33,751 bases of DNA from Tannerella sp. (GTDB lineage Bacteria > Bacteroidota > Bacteroidia > Bacteroidales > Tannerellaceae), in the NCBI GenBank assembly GCA_031276175.1, contig JAISNP010000133.1:1-33751 (forward strand). The letters are read 5' to 3'. Below, piece by piece: positions 3,742 to 26,937 of the stretch (positions within the stretch are counted from its first letter, which is position 1; each line of letters begins with the position of its first letter). The notes under the pieces were generated by a model. The model was not told where the DNA came from, made no database searches, and worked only from the letters and a program-made list of their open reading frames with translations. A program made the translations under genes and the position numbers.

Positions 3742-5277
3742 TTAATTTTCTCCTCCTACCGTAAGTTTGGCGACCAGCGCTGCGGGCATTCCGCATGTGA
3801 CGGGGCAGGATTGTCCGTCTTTGCCGCAGGTCCACGTGCCGTTATCCATTTTGGGGTTATTGCCGACCATCGTGATGTCGGCCAGCGCTGCGGGGCCGTT
3901 GCCGATGATGTTGACATCTTTCACGGGTTGCGTCAGTTTGCCGTTTTCGATCAGATAGCCGTTTTTGACGAAGAAGGTAAAGTCGCCTGCTCCGATCTGT
4001 ACCTGTCCGTTGGTGAAATTGGCGGCGTAGATTCCTTTTTTGACTGCGGCGATGATTTCTTCTTCGGGATATTCTCCCGCTTCCATATAGGTGGAGCGCA
4101 TACGCGGGATGGGTACTGCGCGGAACGATTCGCGGCGTCCGTTGCCGGTGGGCGCGACGCCGTAGTGTTTTGCACTGATGCGGTCGTGCATGTAGCTTGT
4201 CAGTATGCCTTCGCGCACGAGATACGTTTTTTGTCCTTCGATGCCTTCGTCGTCGATGTTCACTGCGCCGCGGTTGGAGGCGATGGTGCCGTCGTCTACG
4301 ACATTGATATTTGGGTTGCAGACCGTCCTGTTCAGTTTGTCCGAGAAGATGGAGGTGTTTTTGCGGTTGAAATCGGCTTCGAAGGCGTGTCCTATGGCTT
4401 CGTGCAGGAGTATTCCCGATCCGCCGGCGCCCATTACGACGGGCATTTCGCCGCCTTTGGGTTTTACGGCACGGAACAGGACGGCGGTTTTGTTGACGGC
4501 TTCGCGGGCTATGGTTTCGATGATTTCGTGGGTTAGAAATTCGGAGCCGGTGCGAAACGAGCGGCTGGCGAAGTTGTTTTCCGTTTTGTCGCCGTCGGTC
4601 ATGATACATTGTGCGAAGATTTGCGCCATCGGGCGATAGTCGTAGTACATCAGTCCTTCGGAGTTGCAGAAGAAGATGTGCGACGTGTTGTCGCTCAGAC
4701 CGGCCGTTACCTTGGCGACGCGCTTGTCGAGGGTGAAGATGCGGTCGTTCAGTTTTTGCAGGAAGGGCGTTTTGTTTTTGACCGATATTTCGTCCCAGGG
4801 TGTTTTTACGATATAGTAATTGTGCGTGAGGGGCAGTTCCGTCAGGTTGACGGGTGCCTTGCGGGCGCTGCTGTCGGCGATGCGGGCGGCTGTTTTTGCG
4901 GCCTTCAGCATTTCCTTGAGCGTAATGTCTTCGACATAGGCGTAGCCCGATCTGTCGCCGGAGAGTACGCGCACGCCCATTCCGAAGTCAATGTTGGACG
5001 AAGCCCTGTTTACGGCGGCGTCCTGCAGGCTGACGTTATTGAAGTGGCTGTGTTCAAAAAACAAGTCTGCATAGTCGCCGCCTTTTTCGAGTGCGGCCGA
5101 GAGCGTTTTTTGCAAATCGCGCTCGCTTACGTTGAAATGGTTCAACGCAAAACGTATGGCGGCCGAACTGCCGCCGGAAGTTTCGGCGTCGCAACTTCCC
5201 AGAAAAGAAGGCATTGTAAGCGAACTTACCATGGCCATTCCTCCCGTTTTAATAAATTCGCGTCGGTTGAATTGCAT
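3742..5277 (-). CDS. TldD-family metalloprotease with Tat-like leader
   Basis: The 511-aa product carries the TldD metal-binding motif H-E-A-I-G-H (H292, E293, H297), followed by the acidic A-F-E-A-D. The C-terminal half repeats the family signature G-D-F-T-F-F-V-K-N-G-Y-L-I-E-N-G-K. The N-terminus begins M-Q-F-N-R-R-E-F-I-K-T-G-G, a twin-arginine-type motif, and a hydrophobic stretch leads to L-G-S-C at C29, which also fits a lipobox. That predicts export and perhaps lipid anchoring, whereas studied TldD proteins are cytoplasmic. The ATG at 5277 has its own promoter (5308-5338) inside the end of the upstream minisatellite element. tldE follows after 1 bp. Confidence 0.92.
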   Translation of the reverse strand: MQFNRREFIKTGGMAMVSSLTMPSFLGSCDAETSGGSSAAIRFALNHFNVSERDLQKTLSAALEKGGDYADLFFEHSHFNNVSLQDAAVNRASSNIDFGMGVRVLSGDRSGYAYVEDITLKEMLKAAKTAARIADSSARKAPVNLTELPLTHNYYIVKTPWDEISVKNKTPFLQKLNDRIFTLDKRVAKVTAGLSDNTSHIFFCNSEGLMYYDYRPMAQIFAQCIMTDGDKTENNFASRSFRTGSEFLTHEIIETIAREAVNKTAVLFRAVKPKGGEMPVVMGAGGSGILLHEAIGHAFEADFNRKNTSIFSDKLNRTVCNPNINVVDDGTIASNRGAVNIDDEGIEGQKTYLVREGILTSYMHDRISAKHYGVAPTGNGRRESFRAVPIPRMRSTYMEAGEYPEEEIIAAVKKGIYAANFTNGQVQIGAGDFTFFVKNGYLIENGKLTQPVKDVNIIGNGPAALADITMVGNNPKMDNGTWTCGKDGQSCPVTCGMPAALVAKLTVGGEN

Positions 5278-5283
5278 AGCGTT

Positions 5284-5622
5284 TTAATTAATGAATTTGT
5301 CATGCGGCAAATGTACATAAAATAATTCGATTGGGAAAATGGGGGAGTGAAGGGGCGTATTTCGGATTGTCGCGTCTTTTGCGGAGTTTTCGCTGTCTTC
5401 CGCGAGAGTCTCGCTGTCCTTCGCGAGGGTCTCGCTGTCTTCCGCGAGAGTTTCGCTGTCCTTCGCGAGAGTCTCGTTGTCCTTCGCGAGAGTCTCGCTG
5501 TCCTTCGCGAGGGTCTCGCTGTCTTCCGCGAGAGTTTCGCTGTCCTTCGCGAGGGTTTCGCTGTCCTTCGCGAGGGTCTCGCTGTCTGTCGCGCGGGGCT
5601 TGTTGTCTGTTGCGCGGGTCAT
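5284..5622 (-). CDS. Possible heptad-repeat ORF, 112 aa (doubtful gene)
   Basis: An ATG at 5622 overlaps the TGA of the preceding upxY-like gene (shared ATGA), the classic arrangement for translational coupling, and the frame runs through the whole minisatellite to a stop at 5284. The product would be highly charged: a short lead, 11 heptads of the D-S-E-T-L-A-K type, then a tail (D-A-T-I-R-N-T onward) that looks like translated non-coding DNA. It ends 6 bp before the tldD ATG and contains the tldD promoter. I lean towards a repeat that happens to be open, but the ATGA overlap keeps a real small protein possible. Confidence 0.3.
   Translation of the reverse strand: MTRATDNKPRATDSETLAKDSETLAKDSETLAEDSETLAKDSETLAKDNETLAKDSETLAEDSETLAKDSETLAEDSENSAKDATIRNTPLHSPIFPIELFYVHLPHDKFIN
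5308..5338 (-). promoter_or_regulatory. Predicted Bacteroidota promoter for tldD-tldE
   Basis: On the minus strand a -33 box TTTC (5338-5335) is followed after exactly 19 bp by TACATTTG (5315-5308). This matches the Bacteroidota consensus TTTG-N19-TAnnTTTG in spacing and in all but one base. Transcription would start near 5302, about 25 nt before the tldD ATG. The -33 box lies at the end of the segment shared with the second minisatellite locus. Confidence 0.7.
5358..5418 (-). repeat. Conserved tail of minisatellite element, copy 1
   Basis: These 61 bp, read on the minus strand, match 24767-24827 on the plus strand at 49 of 61 positions without gaps (counted by eye). In the heptad frame they encode D-S-E-T-L-A-E, D-S-E-N-S-A-K, D-A-T-I and then GAAATA. 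Similarity continues with a 1-2 bp gap (CCCCTT, CAC, CATTTT) up to the tldD -33 box. Confidence 0.8.
5377..5607 (-). repeat. 21-bp minisatellite, 11 units (heptad type D-S-E-T-L-A-K)
   Basis: Eleven consecutive 21-bp units run from 5607 down to 5377. Nine are near-identical (consensus GACAGCGAGACYCTCGCGRA plus one base) and the two end units are degenerate. On the minus strand they encode D-S-E-T-L-A-K or -E, with one D-N-E variant. Each unit carries the palindrome TCGCGA. Because the unit length is a multiple of three and lacks stops, several frames on both strands stay open, so an open frame alone is not evidence of translation. The array fills the gap between the upxY-like gene and tldD. 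Confidence 0.92.
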
Positions 5623-6149
5623 TTTATTTTATTCAGGGAGACTACGTTTTGGAGGTTTACGCTGACGGTGGCGCCGAGCGGTTCGATGTAGAGGAGGAGG
5701 TATTTTTTGTTTATTTTCCGGATTTTGCCCGATACGTGCTTCATCAGTCCGCAGAGTATTTCTACTTCTTCGCCTTCGCACAGGGGGTGTTCGGCGGCAT
5801 GTCTGAGGAAGATGCGGATGGCGTCTATTTCTTTTTGGCTTACGATGGCCGGTCTGCCGTTATAGTATACGATTCTGGAGATGCCGTAAATCCAAAGCAG
5901 GGTGCGCAGGAGGTTTTCGCGGCATTTGACGAAGATGTAGGAGGGGAAGAGCGGTTTGTCAATCATTTTGACGCGGTCGGACCATACGCGTGGCGTTCGG
6001 TGGAGCGGCAGGTAGTTTTCGATATTTTGCTCGTCGAGATGTGCTTTTACTTTTTTCTCCATATGCGACGAGGTGTACAGTACGTACCAGTTTACCACGT
6101 TTCTGTGTCGGGTTACTGTTGTTGGCGGTGTATTATTTTCATTTTTCAT
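5619..6149 (-). CDS. UpxY-type NusG-like transcription antiterminator
   Basis: This 176-aa protein has the NusG architecture. An N-terminal NGN domain (about residues 20-115) opens with N-W-Y-V-L-Y-T-S-S-H-M-E-K-K-V and contains the family motif L-F-P-S-Y-I-F-V-K. A short KOW-like domain follows (E-G-E-E-V-E-I-L-C-G-L-M, then S-G-K-I-R-K-I). UpxY proteins are specialised NusG paralogues of Bacteroidota that bind RNA polymerase and allow read-through into long operons, classically capsule loci where they are the first gene. Here it is the last clear gene of the ftsK run, overlapping the glycoside hydrolase gene by 11 bp, with no polysaccharide genes in view. Its stop overlaps the start of the heptad-repeat frame. 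Confidence 0.88.
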   Translation of the reverse strand: MKNENNTPPTTVTRHRNVVNWYVLYTSSHMEKKVKAHLDEQNIENYLPLHRTPRVWSDRVKMIDKPLFPSYIFVKCRENLLRTLLWIYGISRIVYYNGRPAIVSQKEIDAIRIFLRHAAEHPLCEGEEVEILCGLMKHVSGKIRKINKKYLLLYIEPLGATVSVNLQNVVSLNKIK

Positions 6150-24421: not shown

Positions 24422-24541
24422 TGCGAATAATCTCCGCATAATCACTTCCCTGCATACCGACATCTGCGAAAATACGTCCGACCGGCATCATCGGCGTACT
24501 TTCGAAACATCCTCGCGGCGCGCCGAACCTTGATTCACCTC

Positions 24542-24751
24542 AACCAAGGTTTCGGCGACGCCAACCAACCTTTTGTTCACGCCAACCAATGTTTCGTTCA
24601 CGCCAACCAAACCTTTGTTCACGCCAACCAATGTTTCGTTCACGCCAACCAAACCTTTGTTCACGCCAACCAAACCTTCGTTCACGCCAACCAAACCTTT
24701 GTTCACGCCAACCAATGTTTCGTTGGCGCCAACCAAAGTTCGGTTGGAATG
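24542..24751 (+). repeat. 21-bp minisatellite, 10 units (plus-strand heptad N-Q-T-F-V-H-A)
   Basis: Ten consecutive 21-bp units run from 24542 to 24751. The conserved core is GTTCACGCCAACCAA, followed by a 6-bp variable part, mostly ACCTTT or TGTTTC. The first and last two units are degenerate. Open frames exist on both strands because the unit has no stops in several frames; the only one with an ATG starts on the minus strand at 24761, and none is supported as a gene. On the minus strand one frame reads V-N-E-T-L-V-G or V-N-K-G-L-V-G. The array lies between gcvP and the esterase gene. Confidence 0.92.
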
Positions 24752-24766
24752 TGCAAGGCATGAAAG

Positions 24767-24827
24767 GACGGCGAATATCTCGCGGAAGACCGCGAAAGCT
24801 TCGCGAAGGATGCGACTATCTGAAATA
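24767..24827 (+). repeat. Conserved tail of minisatellite element, copy 2
   Basis: This segment matches the minus-strand segment at 5418-5358 at 49 of 61 positions. It encodes two degenerate heptads of the other array's type (D-G-E-Y-L-A-E and D-R-E-S-F-A-K), then D-A-T-I and a TGA, ending in GAAATA. Similarity continues (CCCCTT, CAC, CATTTT) to the -33 box of the next promoter. Confidence 0.8.
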
Positions 24828-24847
24828 TCCCCTTTTCACAATACATT

Positions 24848-24879
24848 TTTGCATGATGGAAAAAAAACGATTACCTTCG
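24848..24879 (+). promoter_or_regulatory. Predicted promoter for the esterase-GNAT operon
   Basis: TTTG (24848-24851), 20 bp, then TACCTTCG (24872-24879), matching TAnnTTTG in all but one base. The predicted start is close to 24885, with the ATG at 24902. The -33 box joins directly onto the conserved tail segment. Confidence 0.65.
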
Positions 24880-24901
24880 TCGAACAAAATACGGATTGAA
24901 A

Positions 24902-26134
24902 ATGAAAAAGAAAGTTTTTACAACACTGATATTATGCCTGCTGGTCGCCGGAGCGGCGGCGGCGAATCCCGAACGAAAAAGCATTCAGGCAGGCGGACAT
25001 ATGCGCGAATACCTTGTGTATATGCCTCAAAACGAGTATGCAGGCAAACCGGACGGGATCATCGTCGCTTTGCATGGCTTCAATCAGACGATGCACAATT
25101 TTTTTGAAGAATATTCGATGACTTCGATTGCCGATTCGCTGAATTGCATCATCCTGTCGCCTCAGGCGCTGCCCGAACAGGACGAAAATGTTATCGGCAA
25201 ATCCGATGTGTTAAACCTGTTTCTCGACAAAAAGATTAAACTGGATGCCGCATGGGGTTGCGGTTTAAGAGTCAGGTTTTTTATTCTCGACGGCCTTGAT
25301 CTGCCGCTCACCGCAGAACTGAACAAAAGCGTGGACGATGTGGATTTTATCCGCATGGCCATAGCACAAACGCTGAACGAGCACGCCATGCCCGTAGAAA
25401 ATATTTACCTCGCAGGCACGTCGATGGGCGGATATATGGCGTATCAGTTTGCCGTGCGGCAGCCGCTCAAGCTGTCGGGTATCATCTCCATTGCCGGCTC
25501 GATGGGACTGGCCATAAGCGGGGCGGATGGCCGACTCAAAACACCGGTCTGCGATTTCCATAGCGTGACGGACGATGTGGTACCCTATGCGGGTTCATAT
25601 CTTGCAAGCGCCGGCGTCACCGTTTCGCTGGCTAAAAATAAGGAAGACGTCATTCGCTACTGGGCAGAGACCAACGAGACCGGCACGCCTGTAACCGAAA
25701 ACGTCGACTATTATCCGTCGACCAACGGTATTACCGCCGAAAAAATCACATATCCCCATCCTGAAAACGAAGTCGTTCACTACAGGATAAACGGTGCGTC
25801 GCACGGCTATTTTTTCCGCAAAGGCAGCGGAGATTGTATGGATTACGTCGAAGAAACAGGCAAATTCATAGCATCTCATTTCGTAAAACATTCCGGTGGA
25901 AACGAAACCGTCGATGCAACACAAATTGCCGTCTATCCCAATCCTGCGCGCGACGCCGTATACTTCGGATGCCCTGACGGAGATGTTTCCGTATATGATC
26001 TGACGGGGAAACTTGTCCTGTCCGCCTCTTTCCATTCGGGATACCTGAATATCTCCTCCCTGAAACAAGGTATGCACATTCTGCGCATCCGGTCGGGAGA
26101 CCGTACATATACTGCGAAAATAATAAAACAGTAG
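24902..26134 (+). CDS. Secreted PHB-depolymerase/esterase-like alpha/beta hydrolase with T9SS sorting domain
   Basis: The 410-aa product starts with a signal peptide (M-K-K-K-V-F-T-T-L-I-L-C, cleavage after A-A-A). An alpha/beta-hydrolase domain follows with I-V-A-L-H-G-F-N-Q (oxyanion region), the nucleophile elbow G-T-S-M-G-G (S174), an acid in S-V-T-D-D-V-V-P-Y and a histidine in G-A-S-H-G-Y-F. This resembles the LpqC/PHB-depolymerase esterases, which include carbohydrate esterases. The last 75 residues form a type A T9SS C-terminal domain: V-Y-P-N-P-A-R-D, V-Y-D-L-T-G-K, L-K-Q-G-M-H-I-L-R-I and a final K-I-I-K-Q. It should be exported by the type IX system. The substrate is unknown. I use the ATG at 24902. 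Confidence 0.9.
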   Translation: MKKKVFTTLILCLLVAGAAAANPERKSIQAGGHMREYLVYMPQNEYAGKPDGIIVALHGFNQTMHNFFEEYSMTSIADSLNCIILSPQALPEQDENVIGKSDVLNLFLDKKIKLDAAWGCGLRVRFFILDGLDLPLTAELNKSVDDVDFIRMAIAQTLNEHAMPVENIYLAGTSMGGYMAYQFAVRQPLKLSGIISIAGSMGLAISGADGRLKTPVCDFHSVTDDVVPYAGSYLASAGVTVSLAKNKEDVIRYWAETNETGTPVTENVDYYPSTNGITAEKITYPHPENEVVHYRINGASHGYFFRKGSGDCMDYVEETGKFIASHFVKHSGGNETVDATQIAVYPNPARDAVYFGCPDGDVSVYDLTGKLVLSASFHSGYLNISSLKQGMHILRIRSGDRTYTAKIIKQ

Positions 26135-26863: not shown

Positions 26864-26937
26864 TGATTCCGGAGCGACTCGAACGCTCGACCCACAGCTT
26901 AGAAGGCTGTTGCTCTATCCAACTGAGCTACGGAACC
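26864..26937 (-). tRNA. tRNA-Arg (anticodon TCT)
   Basis: Read on the minus strand, the 5' arm GGTTCCG pairs with CGGAATC (one G-T), followed by discriminator A; CCA is not encoded. The D arm contains AGCTCAGTTGGATAGAG. The anticodon stem ACAGC/GCTGT encloses CTTCTAA with anticodon TCT, which reads AGA/AGG arginine codons. The T arm contains GTTCGAGTC. All four arms fold. Confidence 0.97.

Follow-up and report, generated by a model that had tools for sequence, protein, structure and literature searches.

The tail of about 60 bp shared by the regions upstream of a tldD-type gene and of an esterase gene is very probably the surviving near end, or relic, of a promoter-targeted, ISKra4-like miniature transposon. 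Both loci lie in a single stretch of 33,751 nucleotides from a Tannerella sp. contig, hereafter the window. An earlier note on this DNA had hesitated between a dispersed upstream regulatory element and a mobile repeat. We favor the mobile, promoter-targeted reading because a 22-bp terminal inverted repeat (TIR) that forms part of the tail is dispersed through this genome and its relatives. In the relatives, this TIR occurs in inverted pairs, some of them with 8-bp target duplications, adjoins transposase fragments and keeps a fixed spacing to promoters; the same promoters are also found there without the TIR.

The features of the two loci are as follows (window coordinates):

3742..5277, minus strand: tldD-type metallopeptidase gene (PmbA_TldD domains), downstream of the first TIR
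5308..5315, minus strand: tldD promoter, -7 box (TACATTTG), with the TIR end 37 nt upstream
5335..5338, minus strand: tldD promoter, -33 box (TTTC), assigned by position, with the TIR end 14 nt upstream
5353..5374, minus strand: TIR upstream of tldD, reading outward CGCGACAATCCGAAATACGCCC (score 32.8 with a 31-copy profile that includes it)
5375..5608, minus strand: type-A 21-bp array, unit TCGCTGTCCTTCGCGAGGGTC on the plus strand, whose last degenerate units touch the TIR
24526..24737, plus strand: type-B 21-bp array, CCAACCAAACCTTCGTTCACG-like, found by tandem-repeat detection
24764..24810, plus strand: about two type-A units joined to the TIR, matching the end of the tldD array at 38 of 47 positions
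24811..24832, plus strand: TIR TGCGACTATCTGAAATATCCCC upstream of the esterase gene (score 27.2 with a 31-copy profile that includes it)
24848..24851, plus strand: -33 box TTTG of the esterase promoter, assigned by position, 15 nt outside the TIR end
24872..24879, plus strand: esterase promoter, -7 box (TACCTTCG), with the TIR end 39 nt upstream
24896..26134, plus strand: T9SS-sorted alpha/beta-hydrolase gene (carboxylesterase / PHB-depolymerase-like)

The main promoter consensus of the Bacteroidota is -33 TTTG / -7 TAnnTTTG, and the esterase -7 box (TACCTTCG) is one base off TAnnTTTG. Tandem Repeats Finder describes the tldD array as 5390-5597 with a period of 21 (9.9 copies) and as 5390-5608 with a period of 42. 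The earlier note had given both loci the same orientation and the order array (of 21-bp units), tail, promoter, gene, and the sequence agrees. The window also holds a UpxY-family transcription antiterminator gene (5619-6149, minus strand), which ends just before the tldD array, and a tRNA gene (26864-26937, minus strand).

The match between the two loci was recomputed and its size confirmed: 5418-5358 (minus strand) and 24767-24827 (plus strand) are identical at 49 of 61 ungapped positions, and the best ungapped extension pairs 5421-5350 with 24764-24835. When the tldD array is excluded, the runner-up 61-mer in the window reaches 32/61, the mean being about 15 (SD about 3.6). The similarity that had been described as one tail of about 60 bp is therefore real, but it is composed of two parts, namely repeat-unit DNA (about 47 bp, 38/47 identical) and the 22-bp TIR (17/22). 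Outside the TIR end the two loci agree at 13 of 40 positions, which is near chance. The tail had also been said to continue to the -33 box: CAC and CATTTT are literally present at both loci, but this continuation is not established as homology because of the low agreement past the TIR. The shared part thus stops at the outer ends of the TIRs, at 5353 and 24832, ahead of the promoter. Searching the window revealed no recognisable second TIR end at either locus, and no target duplication at the tldD or the esterase locus.

The heptads that both tails had been said to encode are not established as coding, since their frame is interrupted by a stop in the 24.8-kb copy; several frames are open in other arrays. 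Type-A units fill 47 of the 69 columns compared between the two loci, as they would if the tail were degenerate array sequence with a chance similarity near two promoters. That explanation is refuted by the presence of the 22-bp part at many loci of other genomes without type-A units, and we regard it as virtually impossible.

The earlier note had proposed a search for further copies of the tail in this genome and its relatives, and the TIR proved to be dispersed in the same genome, in the genus and in other Bacteroidota. Indeed, a 16-nt TIR core (up to two mismatches) has 16 matches in the genome of the window versus 2 for the reversed pattern. A similar pattern (up to one mismatch) has 42 matches, some of them within coding sequence, in 19 of 41 genus genomes versus 2 control matches. 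A sequence-only motif model of 34 columns was built from 31 copies, leaving out coding-region core matches (L093, L104, L118 and others) and L090. It gives 26 matches in the genome of the window at E<=10 and, at E<=1, from 1 to 72 matches in each of the genus genomes (72 in G024, 59 in G051, 58 in G020 and 25 in G000). The genus counts are rough: at most 150 candidates were scored per genome with stricter filters, weak matches are included and the E-values are themselves rough. When named genomes were scanned, the 80 records among the matches listed were all Bacteroidota by title. They include Bacteroidales MAGs, some of them labelled Tannerella, as well as Spirosoma (S. spitsbergense DSM 19989), Pedobacter (Pedobacter sp. 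BS3), Mucilaginibacter, Hymenobacter and Saprospiraceae.

Viral contigs contain no exact TIR match. The letters of the TIR core were not found in the open-licence literature, and no title or abstract opening among open-licence papers on related MITEs and elements describes this TIR family. A second, similar block (approximately GAAAATCRACGYAGTCAAA) follows the core in certain copies (L060, L090, L228 and L229). Several promoter-linked copies are unable, as judged by reading rather than computation, to form a GGTGC/GCACC hairpin, and this structure was therefore rejected; in an Rfam scan of 11 sources, only two tRNAs reach the gathering score.

In the relatives, the TIR forms outward-facing pairs, 22 in one set and 36 in named records. 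The two sets overlap: some named records appear to be the same genomes as in the genus set, with the same elements and duplications, and at least one duplication, TCAGAAAT, is common to both. Exact 8-bp target duplications border 5 of the 22 pairs and, with an offset of up to 1, 10 of the 36 pairs in named records; the other 17 and 26 pairs, respectively, have no exact duplication. The relatives thus display two of the features expected of an ISKra4-type MITE, namely outward TIR pairs and a target-site duplication, here of 8 bp. When the two overlapping sets are combined, 44 of the 58 pairs are only 100-275 bp long, which leaves no room for a transposase. TIRs of 22 bp together with 8-bp duplications would point to a DDE transposase. 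REP elements are likewise short, dispersed, intergenic repeats; the elements described here have instead 22-bp TIRs with 8-bp target duplications.

Transposase fragments were found beside some TIR copies. In a Cyclobacteriaceae MAG (L237), a cut frame of 225 aa adjoins the TIR and scores 94.4 bits with the ISKra4 model and 79.2 bits with the ISLre2 model, below the cut-offs. At E<=1e-10, two of the 41 genus genomes contain relatives of this frame, and five of the six transposase loci fetched have a TIR nearby (four in G049 and one in G008). The best NCBIfam model for the four G049 frames (278, 203, 144 and 109 aa) is ISKra4, with up to 132.6 bits (E=2e-38), which is under the NCBIfam cut-off of 205 bits, the frames being incomplete. 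Three of these frames were also scanned in Pfam, where two pass the UPF0236 cut-off and the third falls short of it. All these transposase copies are fragments or split frames; among the sequences recovered there is no intact autonomous element, and the partial query detected no transposase at E<=1e-10 in the genome of the window. Membership of the tail among ISKra4-derived MITEs is accordingly deduced rather than proven, because only fragments of the transposase were seen.

The TIR ends keep a characteristic distance to promoters. Identical ends being counted once, 42 of 257 distinct ends have an exact TAnnTTTG 36-40 nt outside, against about 2.4 expected; the distances 36, 37, 38, 39 and 40 nt account for 2, 1, 22, 12 and 5 ends, and other positions average 0.48. 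Of these 42 box-linked ends, 14 also have TTTG at 14-16 nt, and positions 14-18 are T-rich. The named records alone have the box at the fixed distance in 12 of 109 ends. If one mismatch in the box is allowed, 10 of the 20 distinct ends in the genome of the window have it at 36-40 nt, where this looser box would be expected at about 1.3; in 8 of the 10 it is exact. The window copies fit the family spacing, with the -7 box at 37 nt (tldD) and 39 nt (esterase), and they lie 14 and 15 nt from the -33 box, within the range of about 13-17 bp upstream of a -35-type box expected for such insertions. This promoter spacing is explained by insertion targeting; preferential survival of useful insertions would be another possible cause.

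A rigid spacing is also what one would observe if the 22-bp motif were the binding site of an activator and its copies defined a regulon, at a fixed distance of about -60 from the transcription start. An earlier count found the start of the motif 58-62 nt from the -7 box in 11 of 52 copies, and a later one found it at 60-61 nt in 13 of 56 copies, at least two of which were already in the 52-copy set. Likewise, the ftsK promoter has a copy in three related genomes: among the best 20 of 30 ftsK regions, the TIR lies at 39 nt in G051, at 38 nt in G023 (degenerate) and at 40 nt in G048, the box being too far up for a TIR to show in two regions. Against this, copies of the motif are arranged as inverted pairs, of which some have 8-bp duplications, and the motif sits beside transposase fragments; an exact box at 36-40 nt is lacking for 215 of the 257 ends. 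The genes downstream, moreover, include a tRNA and, by reading of their translations, look like unrelated housekeeping genes, among them ftsK, ileS, sppA and a DsbD-like gene.

The ileS promoters argue in the same direction. The -7 box is present in all 25 upstream regions shown and the TIR in only one, that of G024, 39 nt from the box; two of the 25 have upstream DNA too short to tell whether a TIR is present. (These are 25 of 30 fetched loci; three of those omitted had less than 80 nt upstream, and two more were left out.) Taken with the evidence for mobility, this makes an activator site very improbable. We also considered a general promoter element, but 90 candidate promoters in 427 kb have no conserved block near -60, and the motif is therefore not part of ordinary promoters. 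As for tldD itself, the array is absent from the 700 nt upstream of the gene in 13 genomes of the same genus; G008 has a motif copy upstream of tldD, at a different distance.

The spacing also bears on whether one insertion or two occurred. After a single insertion, gene conversion or recombination could have copied the tail from one type-A array to another in the same chromosome, such arrays being dispersed; indeed, the match spans type-A units as well as the TIR. The homology nevertheless ends at the TIR, and each TIR stands at the family distance from a different promoter, as two insertions would leave, so that we consider such copying improbable.

Promoter-targeted transposition would account for both loci as follows. 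A transposase would tend to place its element some 15 bp ahead of the -33 box and 38-39 nt ahead of the -7 box, a point that would correspond to the upstream edge of RNA polymerase at Bacteroidota promoters, and the insertion would create the 8-bp target duplication. Two such insertions, ahead of tldD and of the esterase gene, would later have decayed, leaving their near ends. We infer that a transposase of this kind moved both window copies and that it senses the polymerase or the promoter complex; any effect of the two copies on expression is hypothetical.

The earlier note knew of no described element of this form. This holds only in part, since promoter-targeted elements of the ISKra4 group and a minisatellite-bearing MITE have both been published. 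According to Guerillot et al. (2014; PMC3942029), the insertion sites of TnGBS and ISLre2 elements lie 15-17 bp ahead of -35 boxes. The ISKra4 group behaves likewise, and those of its elements whose ends are nearly symmetric have promoters on either side. The same text assigns ISKra4 to group p-MULT 4 and TnGBS/ISLre2 to p-MULT 3, and an analogy with yeast Ty3 is suggested there. Our elements resemble these in having TIRs and in their insertion about 15 bp upstream of the box, and the fragments beside some TIRs show similarity to the transposase. They differ in having a Bacteroidota TIR, in being associated with -33/-7 (TTTG / TAnnTTTG) rather than -35/-10 promoters, and in the shortness of most pairs noted above. 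The spacing observed here is the published TnGBS/ISLre2/ISKra4 rule on Bacteroidota promoters.

The minisatellite MITE is BrickBuilt of Porphyromonas gingivalis, which, according to Klein et al. (2015; PMC4596501), has a 23-nt minisatellite and the TIR GAGACCTTTGCA and is attributed to the IS5 family. It is likewise an intergenic Bacteroidales MITE with an internal minisatellite and many copies with one or no end; its duplications, in contrast, are variable or absent. Since its TIR and its unit length both differ from those of the window element, membership in BrickBuilt was ruled out. A MITE in Cardinium is also on record (PMC9769881).

The insertion rule thus recurs, mostly to a base or two, at a different promoter, that of the Bacteroidota, and in short elements, which offers a natural test of RNA polymerase sensing by a transposase. 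Because the distance of about 15 bp is equal at -33/-7 and -35/-10 promoters despite their different sequences, the transposase may read the polymerase-bound promoter rather than the sequence. The miniature elements may then record active promoters throughout the phylum irrespective of promoter sequence, while rewriting the DNA just upstream of housekeeping genes; we advance this tentatively, leaning slightly against it. The TIR is a potential marker of promoters in uncultured Bacteroidota, and TIR elements change the DNA upstream of genes, ileS, ftsK and tldD being examples.

Finally, the arrays were surveyed in 427 kb of the genome, i.e. the window and 20 stretches (L121-L140). The stretches were chosen for contig size and because several of the contigs held TIR or array matches, so that array density may be inflated, the periods being less affected. 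The smallest period of the 60 arrays is 21 in 30 cases and 42 in 8. Among the units, 29 are exactly 21 bp long, and they represent 22 families; the 21-bp period shared by two unlike arrays is therefore ordinary and says little, and the suggestion that one element swaps or amplifies its array is not supported. Nothing on this pattern of array periods was found in the open-licence literature. Units related to type A occur at C137:7388 and C137:39004, and units related to type B in C143 near 32762 and 56406 and in C90 near 27861. Five other type-A-like array loci have no TIR by eye, two of them being cut by contig ends.

Array DNA was rejected as the dispersed element: the type-A array matches 1 of 41 genomes, its own, at E<=1e-3, and arrays therefore do not define the TIR family. 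Among 144 sampled intergenic regions, 33 have arrays (period 20-23 or 41-42 bp) and 5 have a strong TIR. The two coincide in 4 regions against 1.0 expected, or in 2 of 3 against 0.65 once the window loci are removed; this is at most suggestive of a link between TIR and arrays. The presence of type-A units at the TIR in both window loci suggests that the two moved together, the units presumably having travelled with the element end.

Arrays of other kinds were seen in the relatives. In another species (G024, L098/L218), the TIR at the ileS promoter is directly followed on its inner side by a 21-bp array of a different unit, GAAGACCTGGGAAAGATTGAC. In 60 kb from the single-contig relative G042 (L375-L377), the smallest period is most often 41 bp (10 of 27 arrays), with nine units making up seven families; this period is perhaps species-specific. 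Note also that two contigs, G000:C31:1-47 and G000:C82:2-32, start inside type-A-like repeats; longer arrays may therefore have broken the assembly.
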